This document shows, piece by piece, positions 20,526-35,600 of a stretch of DNA of 41,607 bases. The stretch is from a virus: positions 1 to 41,607 of IMG/VR virus record IMGVR_UViG_3300043772_000697; one strand, given 5' to 3'. Position numbers and translations under genes: made by a program. Positions within the stretch are counted from its first letter, which is position 1. Each line of letters starts with the position of its first letter. Below the pieces are notes generated by a model. The model ran no database searches. It was not told the DNA's origin and saw nothing but the letters and a program-made list of their open reading frames with translations.

Positions 20526-21608
20526 TCAGTAAATCCAACGCACCCTAGGGCTGCCCTGACGAATGCCAAGGTGCACAAAGCCCTTGGGTGCGCCGTAGCC
20601 CAGCGAGTAGGGCCACTGCCTGTCGCACCAGTCCTGCACCGCGTTGATGTCCACGCCGTCAATGAGGAAATCCACCGCACCGACGCCCGGCGCGTCGTAG
20701 AGGTGCTCCGACTGGCTGGCGCCACCCACGGCCCAGTTGATGGCTGCGGGCCGGTAGCCGGAGGTGATGATCACCGCCTTACCGCCGAACTGCGCGCGCA
20801 CCTTCTCGAGAAACTGCGCCAGCTTGCTGGCCGTATCGCACTGATGCTGATGATCGAAGCGCCGCGCCTCCTGGCCGAGCGCGAACTCGCCGTAGGTGAT
20901 GTGGGGCGTGATCTTGAAGCTGAAGGGCGACTCGGGGGTGAACATCGCCGAGACCGGGCCGGTGGTCTGCTTGTCGCGGCCCCAGAGGTCACCTTCTGCA
21001 ATGCGGCGCCGCTTCAGGCCGGCCTCCACGTTGGTGCCAGGGTTGCGGTAGAGCAGCAGTGCATCGGGCACGCCGGGCCAGTCCTTCTCGCGCAGCCGCT
21101 TGCTGATCGTCTCGAAGCCCTTGGCGCCGTAGAAGCCGGTGCCGAGGTTGTAGGCGAAGCTGACCAGCGCGCACTTCTGGTGATCGGCCATCTCGCCCCA
21201 GTAGGGCACGGTGGCGCGCAGCTTGGCGGCGATGTGGTCCACCTCTTGGCGCAGCAGCAGATCAGCCTCGATGGCGTTGATCCTGTCGCCGCGCTTCACC
21301 GGCCGGCCGTCGCCGTAGCGGGTGGTGCCGTAGCCGATCGTCCAGGGGTCGCCGCCGCTGAGCGGGTCCGGGTAGGCCTCGAGGTGGCAGCCCTCGAAGT
21401 CCTTGATCAGCTTCAGTGCCGCGGCCAGATCGGCCTGCTTGCCGTCTTGGCTCCAGGTATTGAACCATGCCCGATCGCGGCGCATGGCTGCGGCGTAGCC
21501 GTTGGTGGCGAGATCCTGCTCGAGGGTCTCGATCGCTGCGGCCTGGTGCGGCAGGCCCCGGTAGAACCTGAACAGCTGCTCCAGCGTGATCGGTGCAGGG
21601 TTGGCCAT
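20526..21608 (-). CDS. Two-domain endolysin: GH24 lysozyme + M15 peptidase
   Basis: 360 aa. Residues 1-60 are an extra helical segment. Residues 62-210 are a T4/P21-type muramidase (GH24): LIKDFEGCHLEAYPDPLSGG with catalytic Glu72, DPWTIGYGTT, then QKCALVSFAYNLGTGFY. Residues 225-355 are an M15_3-type metallopeptidase: ITSGYRPAAINWAVGGASQS, then EHLYDAPGVGAVDF and GFVHLGI, with His302, Asp313 and His346 as zinc ligands. It can therefore cut both the sugar backbone and a peptide bond of peptidoglycan. No signal peptide, so it needs a holin. Confidence 0.93.
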   Translation of the reverse strand: MANPAPITLEQLFRFYRGLPHQAAAIETLEQDLATNGYAAAMRRDRAWFNTWSQDGKQADLAAALKLIKDFEGCHLEAYPDPLSGGDPWTIGYGTTRYGDGRPVKRGDRINAIEADLLLRQEVDHIAAKLRATVPYWGEMADHQKCALVSFAYNLGTGFYGAKGFETISKRLREKDWPGVPDALLLYRNPGTNVEAGLKRRRIAEGDLWGRDKQTTGPVSAMFTPESPFSFKITPHITYGEFALGQEARRFDHQHQCDTASKLAQFLEKVRAQFGGKAVIITSGYRPAAINWAVGGASQSEHLYDAPGVGAVDFLIDGVDINAVQDWCDRQWPYSLGYGAPKGFVHLGIRQGSPRVRWIY

Positions 21609-23482: not shown

Positions 23483-25831
23483 TCAGATTCGGGAGAAGGA
23501 TTGCACCCATACAGATGCGTGGACAGTGTTCGTCTCGTTATTGGTGTAATTGCAGCCAAGCAAGGAGCCGGCGATCAGCGTTGAAATTGTGAAGTCGCCT
23601 GAGGCCAAGAAAGCAGTCGCGTTCGGGCTTCCTCTGCTGGTAAATGAAACAGTTGGCATCGCTGTGTTGCCAAAGAAGAACACCTCAAAATACTCAAATC
23701 CGCTAGTGCCGTTACGCATAAATCCAAACACTCTTGCTCCGCCAATAGTTCCCGGATCCGCAGCGTATTCGGCAAGCTTGAAAGTTGCGCTAGGAGCAAT
23801 GCTGAACCGGATCGGTCGTGTTGAAATTGCACCTCTTAAGCCGTCACCGCGCGGAACAATGGCGCTCGCGCTTGTGGAGCTGTCGCTAACTCGATTGACT
23901 GCTACGTTGGCGGCGTTGAGAATGTTGTCATCAGCTAGCACAAGTTCGACAAGTCCTGCGTCCGTGATTCGGATGCAGTCACCGGAAGCCGCGCTATGAT
24001 AAACGCGGTTCTGGCTTACATAAATAGCAGAACTGTTGTTGGTTGTACTGTCATCAGATACTAAAATTCCATAGCCACCTGCCCTTGATGCTGTAATGAG
24101 ATTTGACGCCAGGCGCAGAGTGTTCATTGAGTTGACTTTAATGCCAACTGGGCACTGAATGTTGTTCCCTGTTACCGAAGCGTGTGCGCTAAATCCAAGG
24201 TAAATCCCGTAACCGCCATCTGATCTGCAAGTGTTGTTTGCAATGGTTGCTGTCGAGTTACGATAAAACCCCAACCGGCCAACAGAGATGCCGCCATAGG
24301 CAGGGGTTGCCGAAGAGGGATCTTGCCCTTCGTTGAAATAGAAGCATGTGTTGTTGGAAATGGACACATTGTTTGTGGCAAAAAGCTCAATAGCCGAACC
24401 GTATGTGTGCTGGACAGTATTGTTGGCAACGGTTGCACCTGTATTGTGCATACTGTTAAGGCTACCCTGGGGGTCATAGCCAATCCAGATGCCATCTCGC
24501 AAACCAGCAAAAATACCAGCGTCTTGATACCAACCGCAATACATCAAGCGATTATCGGTCACTGTAATGTTGTAAACTCCGTTCTGATCAAATCCGTTAT
24601 CGCCTGCGTAGGTAAGCGAGTTTCCAGACCAGACGCAGTTGGTGTCTAGGGGCTGAATGGTTTCGCCAACGCTTGGCGTAGCACCCATTGCCACCATCGT
24701 TGTAATCGTCAGGTAGGTGGTGTTATCGACAATCGACTTGATCACGCCTTGCGGAGACGGAAAAGAGCTAGCCCGTGGAATGTAAAATGCTTGCCCAACC
24801 TTTAACGACCTGAGAGATGTGGAGTTTTTGGCAACTGTAAAAGCTGTTGAAGTGGGTGCGACATCATTGGTAACCGTAGGACCTAGGCCGTAACCACCCT
24901 TAAAGCCAAATAGCGTGATCTTATTGAGCGCATTATCCCGAACAGAATTGTTTAAGCCGCAAGACATGTTGATGCCACTGGAGCCAACTGTGTCGAGGAC
25001 ATTGCCTTTGACAAGGATTCCTTCGGAGTTATCGGTGTAGATACCAAAGCCGCCACCAGCCACATTGCCAACAACACCACAGTTTTTGATGTTTGCGTCT
25101 TGGATCACACCGGCTTTGACAGCAGAGAAACTAATTACTGTTGCCGACGTGTTGTTAAGCCCAATGTTTCTAAAACGCCCCCCATACACATAGATGTTTT
25201 CGATCATCCCCGAGGACGAGCCTGCGGAGATTCCATTCCAGTTTGAAAAACTTGTCGAAGTACAGTCAATGCCCCCGTTGTCCTCAAAACGTATGGTTGC
25301 GTTTGAGCCAGTAATGCTAAGCATTGCCGTGCCAGGTGAACCGGCGTTAGCCAGTGGGCTAAGCGTTCCCTGAATGGTGAGGTGAAGATTGCCCGTCGAA
25401 ACAAGCTGGGAAGAAACTTTATAGGTGCCGTTTGGAATCAGTACGTTTTGAGAGGCAGTGATAGCAGCTTGAATGGCCGCCGTATCATTTGCCACACCGT
25501 CTCCAGCCGCCCCAAAGTCCTTAACGGACACCACGTCCTTGAGTTTGCTATCAACCGTCCTCGCAACTGCCCCCGCACCATTCTGAGTGAACTGAAGGCT
25601 GTTGGTGTTCTCACCCGCAGGCCCCAGCGTCACCCATGCGTTGTTCGCTGCATTGCGCTGCTTGAGCAGTGCCGGGGTGCTGCTGGTGTCCACCCAGTAT
25701 TGGTAGGCGAACGTCGTGCTGGGGGCCGATGCGCCGCTGTTGCCGCTGACGATCGCCGCCAAGGCGTTGTTCAGGTCAGCACGGAACGCCTGGCCGGACT
25801 GGTTGGCGATGTTGTAGTCGTGCTGAGCCAT
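23483..25831 (-). CDS. Tailspike with right-handed beta-helix (pectate-lyase-like)
   Basis: 782 aa. The N-terminus (MAQHDYNIANQSGQAFRADL, then NNALAAIVSGNSG) is a virion-anchoring segment common in phages of aquatic bacteria. From about residue 100, VKDFGAAGDGVANDTAAIQA, then IPNGTYKVSSQLV, marks a pectate-lyase-3 fold, followed by many beta-helix turns rich in Asn ladders (TVANNTVQHTYGSAIELFAT, NNVSISNNTCFYF). The end is a beta-sandwich tip. It likely binds or degrades a surface polysaccharide. GC is clearly lower than in the genes around it, as expected for a horizontally exchanged receptor-binding gene. TGATG overlap with gpJ-like gene. Confidence 0.88.
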   Translation of the reverse strand: MAQHDYNIANQSGQAFRADLNNALAAIVSGNSGASAPSTTFAYQYWVDTSSTPALLKQRNAANNAWVTLGPAGENTNSLQFTQNGAGAVARTVDSKLKDVVSVKDFGAAGDGVANDTAAIQAAITASQNVLIPNGTYKVSSQLVSTGNLHLTIQGTLSPLANAGSPGTAMLSITGSNATIRFEDNGGIDCTSTSFSNWNGISAGSSSGMIENIYVYGGRFRNIGLNNTSATVISFSAVKAGVIQDANIKNCGVVGNVAGGGFGIYTDNSEGILVKGNVLDTVGSSGINMSCGLNNSVRDNALNKITLFGFKGGYGLGPTVTNDVAPTSTAFTVAKNSTSLRSLKVGQAFYIPRASSFPSPQGVIKSIVDNTTYLTITTMVAMGATPSVGETIQPLDTNCVWSGNSLTYAGDNGFDQNGVYNITVTDNRLMYCGWYQDAGIFAGLRDGIWIGYDPQGSLNSMHNTGATVANNTVQHTYGSAIELFATNNVSISNNTCFYFNEGQDPSSATPAYGGISVGRLGFYRNSTATIANNTCRSDGGYGIYLGFSAHASVTGNNIQCPVGIKVNSMNTLRLASNLITASRAGGYGILVSDDSTTNNSSAIYVSQNRVYHSAASGDCIRITDAGLVELVLADDNILNAANVAVNRVSDSSTSASAIVPRGDGLRGAISTRPIRFSIAPSATFKLAEYAADPGTIGGARVFGFMRNGTSGFEYFEVFFFGNTAMPTVSFTSRGSPNATAFLASGDFTISTLIAGSLLGCNYTNNETNTVHASVWVQSFSRI

Positions 25832-28800
25832 CAGACGATCTCCCGGCCGTAGCCGATTGCAGTGTAGGTGAACTGGCGGCTCACGGCGGTCCCGCCACTG
25901 TTCCTAAAGGTTACCTGTAATCCCGTGCGCGTCACGGAGCCGATCGTGAAGTAGTCAGCGGTGCCCATGTCGTAGCCCGTCACTCCAATGCTAGGGGGTT
26001 GGTAGAAAGCCTCGGCGAAGGTCACCGAATAGGTGCCGGCGCCACTGGTCAGCGTGGCCGACTGCTCGGTGCGCTGCTGCAGCTCCACCACGCAGCCGAG
26101 TTCGTCGATCAGGATGTTGACGTTGGGATCGTTGCTGGTGGCGATCGTCTTGAACTGGAAGCCACGGCCGCGCACGATCGCGTTGGCGAACTCGCGCCAG
26201 GTGGTCCAGGTGGGGGTGCCGGCCGGGTTGTCAGTGGTGCTGCGCACGTAGAGGCGCGCGTTCACCGAGTCGATGTTGCCGTCGTCGATCTCGGACCAGC
26301 TGTCGATCAGCTCGACCTTCTCATCCCAGAGCCCGGTCAGCAGGATCGCGCGGGTCAGGAAGCGCCGCTGCAAGTTGATGTCGAACACGCCGCCCATGTC
26401 GAGCGTCGAGCCGAACTCGTACTCCCCGTGCTCCGGCGGCAGCGGGCTGTCGATCGTTGTCAGGCCGTCCCAGTTGCCGGCCTGGCCTTCGTTGAGAATC
26501 TGGTCGCCATCCTCAAGCAGCAGGGCATCGCCGTCTTCCTGCGCCAGGTTGTCGTTGCCGGCGCCTGGCGGGGCGAGGTCATCAACCAGCGGGCCGGTGC
26601 TGATCACGAGGCCGTCCAGCTCCTCGTTGTAGAACATGTCCACGACGTTGCCCGAGAACGGCGGCGTCTCCTGATCTTCCGCGTAGGTCTGCACCAGCAG
26701 GCGCGGCAGCGGTGTCGGCAGGTCGGCCACGATCAGCGTGGCGTTGAGAGACCGGCGGCCCCCGTCATCCTCGAACTTGAGGAGATAGGTGCCCTCGAGA
26801 AGCGGCACCTGCTTCTGGGTCTGGTTGCCGGACGCTGCCGGCACGATCTCGATGCTGTCCTCCCAGATGGCGCCGACTAGGAGCGGCGTGTGGCGGATCA
26901 GCACCTTGCCGCCGATCTTCACGTCGAGCTCGGTCGAGGCCGTCCAGCTGATGATCGCGCTGGCCTGGTCGATCGGCACCAGCGAGACGCCGGTCACATC
27001 AGCCGGCGGTGCCGTCTTGCCGAAGACGTTGAAGGTGAGCTTGGCCGGCAACACCGACGAGCGCAGCCCGGCGTTGACGCTGTAGACCTCGATCTCGTAG
27101 CGGCCTGGCGTGGTGTCGAAGATCTCGAAATCGGGCCGCTGCTGCGTGGACGTTGACCAGTTGCCGTTCTGCAGGCGCCAGCGGTAGCGGTACTGGTTGA
27201 CGCCGACCACCGGCTGCCAGCTCACGACCAGCTTGGACAGCACCCGGCCGTTGCTCTCGTAGAGCGCCTCAACGGCCTGCAGGTTGATGGGTGCTTCGGG
27301 GATGACGTTGAGGTCGGTGATGTCGCGCTGCGCCAGCGGCCGGCCGCGCTCGATGTAGTCGTACTTCGAGGCGTTGTAGGCGAGCGCCGTGATCTGGTAC
27401 TGCGCCTGATCCTGCTCGGCCACGCTGAGCACCCGCCACGTTGAGGCTTGGATGTTGGAGGTCTCGTAGATCCAGATGCTGTTCGCGTTTGGAGCAGAAG
27501 GCAGCGCCGATGCGAGCGTCACCGTGGTGCCAGCGATGCTGGCCACGCCGCGGCTCTGCACCGTGCCGTCGGGCAGGATCACCGAAAGAGTGCCGCCTGA
27601 TGGCGATAGATCGGTGGCGTTGTCCACCGTGATCGTGGTGGTGGATGCGGCTGCAATCCGGCCGCCACGACGGGCACCGGCGCGCATCGGGTCGGAGATG
27701 TTGATCACCTGGCCGGGGCGCACCAGCACGCCGGCGTCGATCGAAGCGGTGAACGTCACCACCTCGGATTCGTATTGCTCGGAGTAGAGCAGCCATTCGC
27801 CGATGCGCGAAGCCTGCCCGCGGGAGGTGCAGGCGAAGGCCGACACCTCGGTGGTCACCACGCCGTACTTGGCGATCGCGGTCTGATCCTCGACCACCTC
27901 GTAGGCAATGTCGCGCAGGCTCAGGTCGAGGTAGCTGACCACTGCCACGGTCGGGCGTGTCTTGAGGCTGCCGCCTTGGTAGCTGAACCCGTCATCGGAG
28001 ACGTTGGCCAGCGTGAACAGGTAGGCCGGGTCCGACGGCTTGTCCTGGCTGATGGTCAGCGCGCCGGTGCTCCAATAGGGCATCGCCCGGAAGGTGGAGC
28101 ACAGATCGTTGATGAGCTTGTAGGCCTCCTCGGCGGTCTGGATGTTGACGTTGCAGGAGAAGCGCGGCTCGGTGCCGCCAAAGCCGTTGGGCACCAGCTC
28201 GGAAGCGTACTGGCTCGCGGCATAGAAAGCCCACTTGTCGAGCTGCGCGGCCTGGATGTGATCGCCCAAGCCGTAGCGGGTCGAGGTGAGCAGATCCCAC
28301 AGGATCCAGGCCGGGTCCGAGCACCACTGTGCAGCGCCGAAGCTGCCGTTCCAGATGCCGGCGTAGATCAACCGGCCGGTGGCCGCGTCCACCGTGGCGT
28401 TGTTCGGGATTCGGACCTTGATGCCGCGCACCAGGTAGGTGCGCGCCGGGATCGAGCTGAACTGCTCGGCATCCACCCGCACCGCCACCAATGCGCTGTT
28501 GGGGTAGCGCAGCTTCGCGTAGGTGATCTCGGTGTAGCTTGACCAGCTGAAGGCATTGATCAGCTTTGCGCTGTTGCTATCCGCCGTGATCCGCGTCACC
28601 CGGATGTTCACCGGGAAGGCGCCTGACAGGCTCACCAGGTAGTCGCGCTGATACTGATCACCCGTGCGGCCAGCGATCGTGTCGTCGATCACGGTGCCGT
28701 AGCCGCCGCCGTTGTACTGCACGGCAATCTGCAGGCGCACATCGGTGCCCTCGATGTCGCCCTTGTCAGTGAACAGCTGCAGCGCTGGCACGGTGATCGT

Positions 28801-29619
28801 CACGCGCGCGGCGTTCACCGTGGTGTCGGTAATGCTGCGCACCACAGGCGTGGCCTGCTGCACCGTGACGTTGACGCCAACCTCGTTCTCAACGTCGGCA
28901 GCGATCGGCACGTAGCTCTGGTTCTGCGTGCCGTTGCGCGTGTAGACGAGAATGTTCTGGAAGTTGTAGCTGCCATCCGGGTTCTGCAGCGGCGTGTTGT
29001 CGATGAAGACCGACTTGTAGCCGTCTTTCAGGCCCTCGATCTCGCCTTCGCTGATGAGATCCACCAGGTTGGCGTATTGCGTCGAGTTGAGGCTGTCGGC
29101 TGCCTCAGTTGGCGTGTAGGTTTCGCCGCCGCCGCCGCCTTTGCCGCCGCCGCCACCACCGCCTGCGCCAGCAATGCCGAGGCCGAGGCCGGCGTTGTGA
29201 ACCCGGATCCCACCGGCGATGAAGGTGTGATGGCCCTCGACGGTCAGGTTGTAGACGGTGCCGACGCAGAACTCAGCGCGGTCCACGATCGGACGCAGGT
29301 GGCCGTTCTCATCCACCAGGCAATCGTCGGGGCCGAGCGTGTCGATCTCCACGAAGGCGTTGAACTGGTTCAGCACCCAGTGGTTGGGCGTGGCATCCAA
29401 GACGGCACCGCCCCAGAGGCGATAGCGGTTCACCCGCTCGCCTTCGTGCACGTGCACCTTGAGGATCTTGGCGTGATGCAGCTTGCCGCGATCGTCGAAG
29501 CTGACCACCAGGTCGCCAGGCTGCAGCGCCTCAATCGGACGCTGCCCGTCAGGCGTGCGAATCAGCGTGTGCCCGAGAAAGCATCCGCCACCACCACCAG
29601 CACCGACGATCCTGCTCAT
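25831..29619 (-). CDS. Tail tip / host-specificity protein (gpJ-like) with N-terminal Hint domain
   Basis: 1262 aa. Residues 13-142 are an intein-like Hint domain (separate entry) between Gly-rich linkers. From about residue 167 it is lambda gpJ-like: TPTEAADSLNSTQYANLVDL, ISEGEIEGLKDG, then the baseplate-hub-like domains, SDPAWILWDLLTSTRYGLGD, and fibronectin-III-like repeats (IPEAPINLQAVEALYESNGR, TAPPADVTGVSLVPIDQASA). The C-terminus (IGVTGYDMGTADYFTIGSVT) is beta-rich. Without the Hint part it is about 1130 aa, the size of lambda gpJ (1132). It closes the tail tube and contacts the receptor. ATGA overlap with the gpI-like gene. Confidence 0.95.
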   Translation of the reverse strand: MSRIVGAGGGGGCFLGHTLIRTPDGQRPIEALQPGDLVVSFDDRGKLHHAKILKVHVHEGERVNRYRLWGGAVLDATPNHWVLNQFNAFVEIDTLGPDDCLVDENGHLRPIVDRAEFCVGTVYNLTVEGHHTFIAGGIRVHNAGLGLGIAGAGGGGGGGKGGGGGETYTPTEAADSLNSTQYANLVDLISEGEIEGLKDGYKSVFIDNTPLQNPDGSYNFQNILVYTRNGTQNQSYVPIAADVENEVGVNVTVQQATPVVRSITDTTVNAARVTITVPALQLFTDKGDIEGTDVRLQIAVQYNGGGYGTVIDDTIAGRTGDQYQRDYLVSLSGAFPVNIRVTRITADSNSAKLINAFSWSSYTEITYAKLRYPNSALVAVRVDAEQFSSIPARTYLVRGIKVRIPNNATVDAATGRLIYAGIWNGSFGAAQWCSDPAWILWDLLTSTRYGLGDHIQAAQLDKWAFYAASQYASELVPNGFGGTEPRFSCNVNIQTAEEAYKLINDLCSTFRAMPYWSTGALTISQDKPSDPAYLFTLANVSDDGFSYQGGSLKTRPTVAVVSYLDLSLRDIAYEVVEDQTAIAKYGVVTTEVSAFACTSRGQASRIGEWLLYSEQYESEVVTFTASIDAGVLVRPGQVINISDPMRAGARRGGRIAAASTTTITVDNATDLSPSGGTLSVILPDGTVQSRGVASIAGTTVTLASALPSAPNANSIWIYETSNIQASTWRVLSVAEQDQAQYQITALAYNASKYDYIERGRPLAQRDITDLNVIPEAPINLQAVEALYESNGRVLSKLVVSWQPVVGVNQYRYRWRLQNGNWSTSTQQRPDFEIFDTTPGRYEIEVYSVNAGLRSSVLPAKLTFNVFGKTAPPADVTGVSLVPIDQASAIISWTASTELDVKIGGKVLIRHTPLLVGAIWEDSIEIVPAASGNQTQKQVPLLEGTYLLKFEDDGGRRSLNATLIVADLPTPLPRLLVQTYAEDQETPPFSGNVVDMFYNEELDGLVISTGPLVDDLAPPGAGNDNLAQEDGDALLLEDGDQILNEGQAGNWDGLTTIDSPLPPEHGEYEFGSTLDMGGVFDINLQRRFLTRAILLTGLWDEKVELIDSWSEIDDGNIDSVNARLYVRSTTDNPAGTPTWTTWREFANAIVRGRGFQFKTIATSNDPNVNILIDELGCVVELQQRTEQSATLTSGAGTYSVTFAEAFYQPPSIGVTGYDMGTADYFTIGSVTRTGLQVTFRNSGGTAVSRQFTYTAIGYGREIV
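29194..29583 (-). other. Hint (intein-like / BIL-type) domain inside gpJ
   Basis: 130 residues from Cys13 (GCFLGHTLIRTPDG) to His141-Asn142 (GIRVHN), with the block-B motif TPNH (Thr77, His80). All cis-cleavage residues of a Hint domain are present, but the residue after Asn142 is Ala, not Cys/Ser/Thr, as in bacterial intein-like domains that cleave rather than splice efficiently. No homing-endonuclease insert. Both flanks are Gly-rich. Confidence 0.9.
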
Positions 29620-31637: not shown

Positions 31638-31973
31638 CTACGGCTCAAACACCTGGCGGAACTTGGCGCGGATCGTGTTGAAGTTGCAGGAGCGCAACGT
31701 CACCTGCCAGCTCTCGCACACGTACTTGCCGGCGCTGCCACGGGGTGGCGTCCAGTCAAACGATTCCACGCCGCCGCGGGCGTCCAGGAACGCGGTGATC
31801 AGATCGCGCTCAGAGTCGCTGCGCTCGCTGAAGGTTAGGTCCCACTCTTTCGGGTTGGTGTTCAGGCCGAAGCGGATGCGCTGCTCATAGCCGTCGCCGG
31901 CCTGGAACTTGCGCACCCGAGGCTGGCTGCTCTCGGTGGCCTCAAACGAGGGTGTATAGGCGAACGTACTCAA
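31638..31973 (-). CDS. Minor tail protein (lambda gpM family)
   Basis: 111 aa (SQPRVRKFQAGDGYEQRIRF, GLNTNPKEWDLTFSERSDSE, FDWTPPRG), a clear gpM-type protein of the tail tip. It starts at TTG 31973, which overlaps the stop of the homing-type endonuclease (TTGA). No in-frame ATG is available downstream before conserved sequence, so the usual start was probably changed when the endonuclease gene came in. Confidence 0.9.
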   Translation of the reverse strand: MSTFAYTPSFEATESSQPRVRKFQAGDGYEQRIRFGLNTNPKEWDLTFSERSDSERDLITAFLDARGGVESFDWTPPRGSAGKYVCESWQVTLRSCNFNTIRAKFRQVFEP

Positions 31974-32611
31974 TGCGCCCTCCCAGCAAAGACCTGCTCA
32001 AATGGTAGGCCGCGCTGCAGGCGGGCCAGCGCTGTGCTTTTGGGGACTCCTAGCTGCCTAGCCCACTCAGTTGCGCAATGCGTTTCGCCGTCATGGCAGA
32101 TAAGCACGTTGTTTCGCTTGTTTTGCATCTGTTCCTTCCAAGTAAGCGCCCATCGGCAGTTACCCGGCTCGTAATTGCCGTTTACATCGATTCGCTCTAG
32201 GGACGCACCATTGGGGCGGTCCCCCATGTCTTGCAGGAAATACTCAAAACCATCTAGCCACCGCTGACATACGTTGATGCCACGGCCGCCGTAATAGTTG
32301 AAATGCTTGTAATTTGCTTTTGTGCACCTGCCGACCATGTGCCTGTAGGCCGTGTACTCGGGGCTCCGTGACATGCCATGGCGCGTTGCGACACGAGCTG
32401 CGTTTTCCCTTCTTAAGCATCCACAGCTCTTTGTGTCACCAGATCGCAGGCATCTAGTGGTCGTATCAGTGGTCCCGCCGCAATCACACCTGCATGTCCA
32501 AACAGAGGCCTTATGCCTGTTCTGTTCTTTGTAGGCAACCACAACTAAACGCTCGAAGCGCTGCCCAACGAGATCAGGACCTTTTCTCATGCATGGTCGA
32601 ACGTGCTGCAT
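31970..32611 (-). CDS. Homing-type endonuclease (zinc ribbon + HNH-like)
   Basis: 213 aa from ATG 32611 (ATG 32590 is an alternative). Residues 10-70 have the zinc ribbon TCRCDCGG...KSCGCLR. Residues 85-170 hold the nuclease-like region: YTAYRHMVGRCTKANYKHFN, YYGGRGINVCQRW, LERIDVNGNYEPGNCRWALT, as in free-standing phage homing endonucleases. The C-terminal part (CATEWARQLGVPKSTALARL) is a small HTH. It sits between tape measure and gpM, where lambda has nothing, and its GC is lower than its neighbours: an inserted selfish gene. Confidence 0.85.
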   Translation of the reverse strand: MQHVRPCMRKGPDLVGQRFERLVVVAYKEQNRHKASVWTCRCDCGGTTDTTTRCLRSGDTKSCGCLRRENAARVATRHGMSRSPEYTAYRHMVGRCTKANYKHFNYYGGRGINVCQRWLDGFEYFLQDMGDRPNGASLERIDVNGNYEPGNCRWALTWKEQMQNKRNNVLICHDGETHCATEWARQLGVPKSTALARLQRGLPFEQVFAGRAH

Positions 32612-32623
32612 GGATTCTACCCG

Positions 32624-35600
32624 TTAGGCTGCTAAGAGGCCACCCGGGCGGCGCTGTTTAATCAGCTCCTGCTGCACCGCCTGCGAGATCGCACGGCCCA
32701 GCTGCTCGCCGCGGCCTGCGTCGCCCTGCACCTGGCTGCCGGTGGCGTCCACGTTCACCACCACGTTGGTGCCACCGCCGCCGCCCTTCATCGCCACGGG
32801 GATGCGCCGGCCATCAGGCAGGGGCACGTAGGCTTCGGGCATCGAGCCCTCGCCGAACATGGCCAGCTGCGGGCTGTTGGCGATGCCGCCGCCGGCGTAC
32901 TTGCGCAGGGGCAGCGGGCCGTCGCTGGTCATGATGCCGCCATCGGCGAAGCCGAACGCCGAGGTGATGCCCTTCACGATCGGCGCCACCACCATGGTCT
33001 GCGCGATCTGGCGCGCGATGTCCTTCAGCACGCCAGCCGCAATGCTGCGCAGGCTGTCGCCCCAGTTGTCGGTGCCGTCGATCAGCAGGTCGATCGCGCT
33101 GCCGATGCCGTTGCCGATCGAGTTGGCGATGCCTTGAACCAGCTGCTTCTTCTCCTCGTAGGCCAGCTTGAGGCGCTCGAGCGCCTGCTCCTCGGTGTTG
33201 AGGCCATCGAGGATGCCGGGCTGAGAAGCCAGTCGGCCCTGCGTGGCCTTCAGGATGGCCTCGAGATTCGCACGCTGCTCGGCAGTGATGTCCTTGCTTT
33301 GCAGGTCCAGCACCAGCTGCTGCTGCAGCGCCTGCAGGCTGGCTGTTTCGGCCGTTGCAGCCCGCTCACGCTCTACGGTCTGCCGGGCCAGCTCAGGGCT
33401 CAGCCCACTGCGCTGCAGCTCCAGCAACCGCTCGAAATCTTCCCGCTGCTCGCGCACCGACTTGCGTTGCTGGTCGAGCTCGCTGGTGATGGTGCCGAGC
33501 TCGGCCTGGCGGCTGTTGACCAGCTCACCGGCCGCCGCGGCCAGGCTGGCCGATCGGTTGGCACCAGATGCTGCATCGAGCCGCCTGCCTGCCGCATCGA
33601 CGCCGCTCATGCTGACGCCAGAAGCCGCTGCAGCAGCCGCACCGGGCCGGCCGATCAGTTGCCGCGCGCTGCCCACCGGACGGGCCGCAGAGCCGCCCTG
33701 CAGGTGCAGGAGCCGCATCCGGCCCTCGGGGGTGTCGATCTCCACCGCGAAGCCGCCGGCGCCGGTGAAGCCCAGATCACGCAGCAGGCTCGCGCCGCCC
33801 TTCAGGCTGACGCCGCTGCCGGAGGGAGTGCCGAAGTCGATGCCGCGGTGGAAGCTGCGGCCGAACAGGTTGCGCGGACCGTAGCCGCTGGTGACGCCAA
33901 AGCTCGAGGGGCTGCGGCCGTTCACGCTCAGGTAGCGATCGGCATCAGCAGCCGTGATCCGCCGGCCATCGGCCCAGCGCGCGTCAAGGTGCGGGCCGGT
34001 GCTCTGTCCCGTGCTGCCGGTGCGGGCGATGATGCCGCCCGGTGCCATCGGAACGCCCATGGCACCAGCAGCGCCGCGCGCACCTTCGCGCATCTTGGCC
34101 GCCATCTTCTCGGCGCCGTCCACCAGGATGTCCCGGATCCCGCGCGCCACGTTCAGCTTGTAGTCCTCGAGCGTGCGCTCGAGCTGCACCTTCCGATCGG
34201 TGGCGTTCTGCTCGATCTGGATCTTCTGCTCGGTGAAGCGGCGAGTGGCTTCGTTCAGCCGCGCCTGCGTCTCCAGCGCGTCAGTGCCGAGCCCAGCGCC
34301 GCGCAGCCGCTGCCGCTCGGCCTCCAACGCGAAGTCCTGCTGCTGTTCCTGCACCCGCCGCCGGGCTTCAGCCGTGCTGCGCTCTAGGTCCAAGCGCTGG
34401 TCGCCCAGCTGGCGCTCGAGGTCGGCCGCGCGCTCGATCGACTGCTCGCGGAAGTCCGCCAGCCGCTTCTCCATCTCCTCGCGGATCTTCAGCTGATCGG
34501 CCAGGTTTTTCTTGGCCTTCTCCATGGCCGCAGCGTCGCGCCCTGCCTCGCGCTCCTTCCGCGCAGCCTCCTGGTCTGCCTTCTGCTCAGGGGTTAGCTC
34601 CTGCGCCTTGTCGCGCGCCTTTGCTGCAGCCTGGCGGTTGGATTCCACAATCGCGTCGGTGCGCTGCTTAATGAACGCATCCACCTCGGCGCGGTTGGTG
34701 AACGCGCCGAGAAAGCCGAACTTCTGCCGCGCTTCGCTCTGTGCCTGCAGCTGCGCTATCAGTTTTGACTGAGCCTCACCGCCACCGCCGCCCAGGTCTG
34801 CCGCGCGCTCGAGCACGCGCGTGAAGGCCTGGATCAGCTTGATCGCCGTGGGGCCAAAGGTCTTGGCGATCTGGATCCCGAGCCGCTCGGTGGCGATCTG
34901 CAGATCCTTGACGGCCTGCGCGCCGGTGTTGAACTGTTCGTTCAGCTTGCCGAGCTGGGTCTCCTTCAGCTTGTTCAGCGCCGACAGCACCACGTCGGTG
35001 GTGACCTTGCCATCAGAGGCAAGCTCCTTCAGCTGGCCGATCGTGACGCCGAGCTCCTTCGCGATCGCCTGAGCGACCAGCGGCGCCTGCTCGCGGATCG
35101 AGCGCAGTTCCTCACCCTGCAGCACGCCGGACGCCAGGCCCTGCTTCAGCTGGATCAGCGCGTTGCTAATCTCCTGCGCCGTGGCACCGCTGTTGCGGGC
35201 CGCGGCAGAGAAGCCGATGAAGGCGCCCTCGAGCTCCTTCAGGGTGATGCCTGTGGGGCGCAGCGAGGCGTAGAGGCTGGCGAAGCTGTCCTGCGCTTCG
35301 GTGTTGCTGATCCGCAGCGTCTTGGCGATCCGCTCAGTGGCAGCCTGCGCCTGGTTGTATTCGCCGAACTGGTTGGTGAGCGCGCGGAGGCGCACCTGCG
35401 CGCTCTCGGCCTGCATCCCGACATCGGCCACATACTTGACGGCCAGCGTGCCACCAGCGGCCGCCGCAAGGCCTCCCAAGCCGCCGCCCATGGCGAGCAG
35501 GCCCGTGACACCACCGCGGCCTGATGCAGCGCCTGTGGCCTTCGCCTGCTGTCGCTGCAGCTTCTCCAGCTCGGCGGTGTAGAACTTGAACTGCCGGCTG

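Follow-up and report, generated by a model that had tools for sequence, protein, structure and literature searches.

The 1070-aa tape measure protein encoded in the window (the whole stretch of DNA analysed, a complete virus record of 41,607 bases) contains a segment, residues 597-714, that is well supported as a circular permutant of the M23 (LytM-type) domain, as regards both its homology to M23 and the permutation itself. This domain is quite probably a peptidoglycan endopeptidase with a His-Asp-Asp site backed by an arginine; we infer metal binding by D618, catalysis and the timing of its action. The carrier was assigned by a Pfam search of the 1070-aa protein, which returned TMP_3 at 131.1 bits for a cut-off of 41 (E = 5.2e-38), and by an NCBIfam tape_meas_nterm match (1.7e-22). 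Table 1 lists the features.

Table 1. Positions in the window of the tape measure gene, its domains and motifs, and the endolysin gene.
Feature	Positions	Strand	Basis
Endolysin, phage lysozyme and M15 peptidase domains in one protein	20526-21608	-	Domain search
Tape measure protein gene (P0001), 1070 aa	32624..35836	-	Pfam TMP_3, NCBIfam and PHROG tape measure families
TMP_3 domain, residues 137-317	34886..35428	-	Pfam
Permuted M23-like domain, residues 597-714	33695..34048	-	Profile matches, rotated-profile alignment 599-714, translation
Canonical C-terminal piece, first here: GIIARTGSTGQSTGPHLDARWADGRRITAADADRYL, residues 601-636	33929..34036	-	Pfam M23 profile 63-85/96; later part of PDB M23 chains
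Linker SVNGRSPSSF, canonical C-end to canonical N-end	33899..33928	-	Translation
Canonical N-terminal piece, second here: GVTSGYGPR...LLHLQG, residues 647-714	33695..33898	-	PDB profile matches; VIA-align to StM23 (9gy1)
HLD, residues 616-618 (H616, D618), HxH equivalent	33983..33991	-	Alignment and translation
R620, counterpart of the second-shell Glu in canonical HxHxE	33977..33979	-	Alignment and translation
HRGID, residues 663-667 (H663, D667), HxxxD zinc motif	33836..33850	-	H and D in 59/59 rows
LLH, residues 709-711; H711, LytM His260 equivalent	33704..33712	-	H in 58/58 rows reaching the column

Order of the M23 elements in the tape measure protein

The first-pass annotation had placed an apparently circularly permuted M23 peptidase at 33690-34040, close to the domain as delimited here, and described a PHLD-type motif followed by SGYGPR...HRGIDFG and then by LLHL. 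The translation bears out this succession. Residues 597-714 start with MAPGGIIARTGSTGQSTGPHLDAR...RYL, continue with SVNGRSPSSF, and then read GVTSGYGPR...FHRGIDF...RMRLLHLQG. The last piece of a canonical chain, GIIARTGSTGQSTGPHLDAR...RYL, is thus placed first, and the canonical first piece, GVTSGYGPR...HRGIDF...LLHL, is placed second, the M23 order of HxxxD before HxH being reversed in this protein. The Pfam M23 profile matched only a fragment, residues 597-619 on profile positions 63-85 of 96, with scores of 16 bits for the whole protein and 22 bits for the segment, under the 28.7-bit cut-off. Profile searches nevertheless established homology to M23 over both halves of the domain. A family alignment of 59 segments, used as a profile against the PDB, matched 32 distinct sequences at E<=1, with solved M23 chains reaching 6e-13. 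Of the 25 distinct sequences scoring better than E = 1e-4, 21 were matched in two separate stretches, and in all three alignments shown the pieces were swapped, profile positions of about 51-126 coming first in the M23 chain and those of about 3-37 later.

The permutation was assessed by rotating the columns of normal-order M23 alignments while leaving the window protein unchanged. With a profile of 16 mixed normal-order sequences, the window protein scored 29.9 bits uncut; the best cut raised this to 62.6 bits and lowered two normal-order controls from 165 to 101 and from 151 to 91. Because these 16 sequences had come through the patterns and profiles of the permuted family itself, the test was redone with 43 cellular canonical M23 sequences, mostly collected via one M23 protein. 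The uncut canonical profile gave 26.6 bits and the best of 98 cuts 57.1 bits, a single cut thereby rejoining both halves in one alignment that covers residues 599-714. With both profiles the cut-point scan displayed a single broad optimum, the best cut falling before the GQxVxxGQ hairpin, downstream of the His-Leu strand and ahead of the last strands. None of 1,000 shuffled decoys exceeded 2.8 bits where the profile was cut best; at the other cuts listed, their maximum was about 5 bits. The M23 likeness of the tape measure segment is not due to chance. Neither a normal-order M23 domain nor any second M23 match was found elsewhere in the protein or in the rest of the 41,607-base record.

An AlphaFold2 model of the permuted domain, built from 54 rows, reached a mean pLDDT of 83.5 and a pTM of 0.79. 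By position, its elements run from the IIA strand to the HLD strand, a helix, VTS, IDF and the meander leading to LLHL. As a control we modelled L088, a normal-order M23 with HxD, at lower confidence (5 rows, pLDDT 70.4); its elements run IDF, meander to LLHL, hairpin strand, FAA, HLD and helix, the hairpin strand being absent from the permuted model. At E<=0.001, Foldseek against the PDB retrieved 40 matches with the normal-order control and none with the permuted model. Since the normal-order control gives these 40 matches, the miss fits a permutation and is no argument against the fold; it would be expected for a permuted chain, without being proof of one. VIA-align, which for the permuted model re-aligned only the 293 chains returned by Foldseek itself and thus compared it with these rather than with all M23 structures, gave StM23 (9gy1) as the best chain (Z 5.2, rmsd 2.5 A, 79 residues) and the sole one with Z of 5 or more among 291 aligned. 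This alignment spans model positions 40-129, i.e. the collinear part of the permuted domain only. The control, by comparison, gave sequential alignments with about 40 PDB entries, almost exclusively of M23/LytM type, with Z of 7-9.7 over about 100 residues, the top alignment being to an M23 chain (Z 9.7, 111 residues). In BFVD, the permuted model had four matches at E<=0.001, including virion proteins of S-TIM5 and P60 and a tape measure fragment. With StM23 as best chain and profile matches to M23, the predicted fold is probably related to M23.

The separate scores of the two halves against normal-order sequences would also be seen if two degenerate M23 remnants, half a domain each and with no common fold, lay side by side. 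We regard this as the least probable reading of all those weighed: the single-domain model is confident, the permuted profile gives one continuous alignment, and the order and short linker are constant in 264 ORFs (118 distinct segments) carrying the whole domain in permuted order in the collected loci, short stand-alone proteins included, the 264 containing repeats where overlapping loci of one contig were counted more than once. Taken together, the split and swapped profile matches, the cut-point scan, the predicted strand order and the order shared by diverse phage proteins uphold the first-pass reading that an M23 domain lies in circularly permuted form within the tape measure.

The metal site and its relation to the permutation

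In canonical M23 enzymes, the accessible text of PMC9662197 and PMC8269130 gives as zinc ligands both HxxxD residues and the second His of HxH, and places the first His of HxH and a further His (LytM His260, EnpA His78) at the catalytic water. In EnpA, the last zinc ligand is held by a Glu two residues downstream (PMC8269130, accessible text). H663 and D667, the HxxxD residues of the window protein, are invariant in the 59 rows of the family alignment, as is H616, and H711 is present in all 58 rows that reach it; this conservation holds down to about 25% identity. By contrast, HxH reads HLD in the window protein, the ligand column of the alignment containing D in 57 rows and H in 2, and the column two residues further R in 57 and E in 2. 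In this site Asp would take the place of His as the third ligand, with Arg or Lys substituting for Glu as the partner residue.

The two positions change together. Among the 118 distinct permuted segments, 112 have D..R, one D..K (P60), three H..E (cyanophages S-TIM5, S-TIM54 and S-TIM66) and one H..G (the group formed by L150, L152 and L154); the remaining one escaped the regular expression and reads AHLDVR. Normal-order segments (51 distinct) gave H..E in 25, H..Q in 4, H..S in 1, H..G in 1, D..R in 19 and D..G in 1, proportions that are biased because this set was gathered mainly with an HxD query, which does not, however, set the pairing. With an Asp ligand, the residue at ligand+2 is Arg or Lys with one exception, and with a His ligand it never is. 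In L150, L152 and L154, HLHAG stands in place of HLDAR in an otherwise near-identical domain, both positions being changed. A further set with HxDxR is found in L299-L310 except L302, genomes of the order of Shackletoniella, where a normal-order M23 has HYDFR for HLHFE.

The first-pass annotation had suspected an altered metal site. The Asp at the third ligand is real at the level of sequence, but it is not tied to the permutation and is wider than had been supposed. Judging from the sequences compared, the change from HxH to HxD is separable from the permutation, as HxD is present in normal-order cyanobacterial M23 and HxH is kept in some permuted domains. We computed a tree from 82 rows and 117 columns, excluding the ligand and ligand+2 columns and dropping near-copies (including the L150 group) and rows missed by the patterns (including P60). 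On this tree, the permuted rows were separated from the others by a weakly supported branch (52/92), and no fewer than 5 changes of the ligand are required. In a test of the coupling of Asp with Arg, independent pairs on the starred branches numbered three in the same direction, none in the opposite one and one with no difference (p = 0.25, too few for significance). An origin of HxD together with the permutation was rejected, since HxD also occurs in normal-order proteins and the AU test excludes a single clade comprising every HxD row (p-AU = 0.0047).

Carriers and spread of the permuted domain

A tblastn search of 50,697 phage records matched 33 of them. In 29, comprising Acinetobacter and Moraxella tail proteins and two cyanophage virion proteins, 69-79% of the query was matched in one piece and in permuted order. 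In IMG/VR, the window segment retrieved 77 relatives, the family alignment 346 (80 retained), the Acinetobacter domain 140 (80 retained) and the stand-alone form 32, these four sets overlapping; a viral scan with the S-TIM54 domain gave no confirmed relative. Motif order was read in 297 ORF matches from 279 loci, of which 260 were permuted, 8 were in normal order and 29 were without the partner motif, all lower bounds given that the regular expressions miss variants such as HPAID in L088. Pfam M23 scored above its cut-off in none of 8 carrier proteins and none of 10 virus records. Hundreds of other phage records contain the permuted domain, and standard annotation overlooks it in most cases.

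The carriers examined include tail and injection proteins. Among them are tape measure proteins (L007, L031, L041 and L051), baseplate-hub GPD proteins with the domain at the extreme C-end (L064 and L066, the latter also bearing a lysozyme-like SLT_3 domain), and gp33 of Synechococcus phage P60, which belongs to the virion structural proteins in PHROGs and carries the domain C-terminally. Stand-alone forms, 217-248 aa long, were also found (L244 and, in S-EIV1, L274). In P60 gp33 (L280:2778-5780), PHLD is kept and the HxxxD His is unrecognisable (SFGVD); comparison of this protein with the PDB yielded no useful match. Its domain is possibly inactive, and, given the apparent loss of this His, not all members of the permuted family may be active.

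Overall, we lean towards a widespread, as yet unnamed lineage of tail-delivered peptidoglycan endopeptidases that would stem from a single permutation of M23 and would be exchanged as a module between tape measure proteins, baseplate-hub proteins and internal virion proteins, with a His-Asp-Asp site and an Arg in the second shell, the swap from His...Glu to Asp...Arg having occurred several times and in both chain orders.

Proposed function and precedents

In the mechanism that we propose, the short linker would tie together what were once the two ends of an ancestral M23 domain. The chain would have been reopened downstream of the active-site His-Leu strand, ahead of the last strands, and the GQxVxxGQ hairpin lost, the rotated chain still forming the same sheet. 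The putative active site would comprise H663 and D667 of HxxxD, H616 as first His of HxH, and H711, with D618 as third metal ligand and R620 as its support, in the positions occupied in the canonical site by a His and the Glu that holds it. Tape measure proteins exit the tail at infection; once ejected, the domain could adopt its fold in the periplasm and cleave peptide cross-links in the vicinity of the injection site, which would allow passage of the DNA. Because the phage encodes a separate endolysin (Table 1), the M23-like domain most likely serves entry, and a role in lysis is unlikely. An integrase gene and a JAB-NlpC/P60 tail protein are also encoded.

Tape measure proteins are multi-copy. 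This fact and the short linker would be compatible with a domain swap, in which the active site forms between adjacent tape measure chains and receives half from each, but the single-chain model is confident and proteins as short as 217-248 aa carry the domain as well, making such an arrangement very improbable. A weightier alternative, unlikely in our estimate, retains the permuted M23 fold and dispenses with cutting: the domain would be a structural or binding module like EnvC or NlpD, D618 pairing with R620 without a catalytic metal. Degenerate M23 proteins with other roles are known (PMC9662197, accessible text), HxH, the motif that defines M23, is not intact here, and the HxxxD His is apparently lost in P60. 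Against this stand the invariance of H616, H663, D667 and H711 across very divergent rows, a ligand column restricted to Asp and His with Asp paired to Arg or Lys in all but one segment, and the adjoining lysozyme-like domain in one hub protein. The conservation of the site and the hub and lysozyme context favour an enzyme, suggesting that the permuted domain is an active endopeptidase.

Compared with M23B peptidases (LytM, lysostaphin, StM23; PF01551), as far as the sources available describe them, the window domain shares both halves, HxxxD, the first His of HxH, the His260 equivalent and the predicted strand set, and differs in its rotated halves, the lost GQxVxxGQ hairpin, the third ligand (Asp for His) and the second shell (Arg for Glu). 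Normal-order cyanobacterial M23 proteins (such as L088, L291-L294, L296, L297 and L302) share HxDxR and, unlike the window domain, are unpermuted and cellular. EnpA, a prophage tape measure protein, also bears an M23 hydrolase (PMC8269130, accessible text), in its case in normal order, with HxH and at a C-terminal position. An 884-aa protein of virus records L271 and L272 contains a near-identical GPRxAPTAGASTFHRGIDF stretch, but its M23 has normal order and HLHFE; considered as a duplicated intermediate, it was rejected as a plain normal-order M23.

A literature search, in which subscription journals were thinly covered, returned no recognisable description of a permuted M23 or of an HxD M23 site. 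The nearest precedents found, in the accessible parts of the sources, are the permuted NlpC/P60 families and HABAS domains. The former (LRAT-like and YaeF-like; PMC6403190) also represent a permutation of a peptidoglycan hydrolase fold, but they are cysteine peptidases with a fold unrelated to M23. HABAS domains, which have a GD-box-like motif, occur in three topologies related by circular permutation, and an M23 peptidase is included in their structural alignment; their carriers differ, being RNA polymerase, NusG and others, and no permuted M23 enzyme was found in the accessible text (PMC11515920). If our reading is correct, one of the major families of peptidoglycan hydrolases would have a naturally occurring circular permutant, which standard annotation largely overlooks because a sequential profile or structure aligner captures just half of the domain. 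The domain would add a wall-cutting module to the tail proteins of many phages seemingly without one, and the coupled change from His-Glu to Asp-Arg would offer a direct, testable case of zinc-site rebuilding. What is new beyond the first-pass annotation is the breadth of the family, the range of its carriers and the Asp-Arg swap at the metal site, separable from the permutation.

Rfam and tRNA scans of the 41,607-base window found nothing. A 213-aa ORF (31970-32611, minus strand) separates the tape measure gene from the next tail gene; it has no Pfam match, and we take it to resemble a homing-endonuclease type protein. The tail-tip J protein (25831-29619, minus strand) has an N-terminal Hint (intein-like) domain at about residues 13-144, between glycine-rich stretches, matched by Pfam Hint_2 (2.6e-6) and PT-HINT (3.4e-5), each just under the cut-off.
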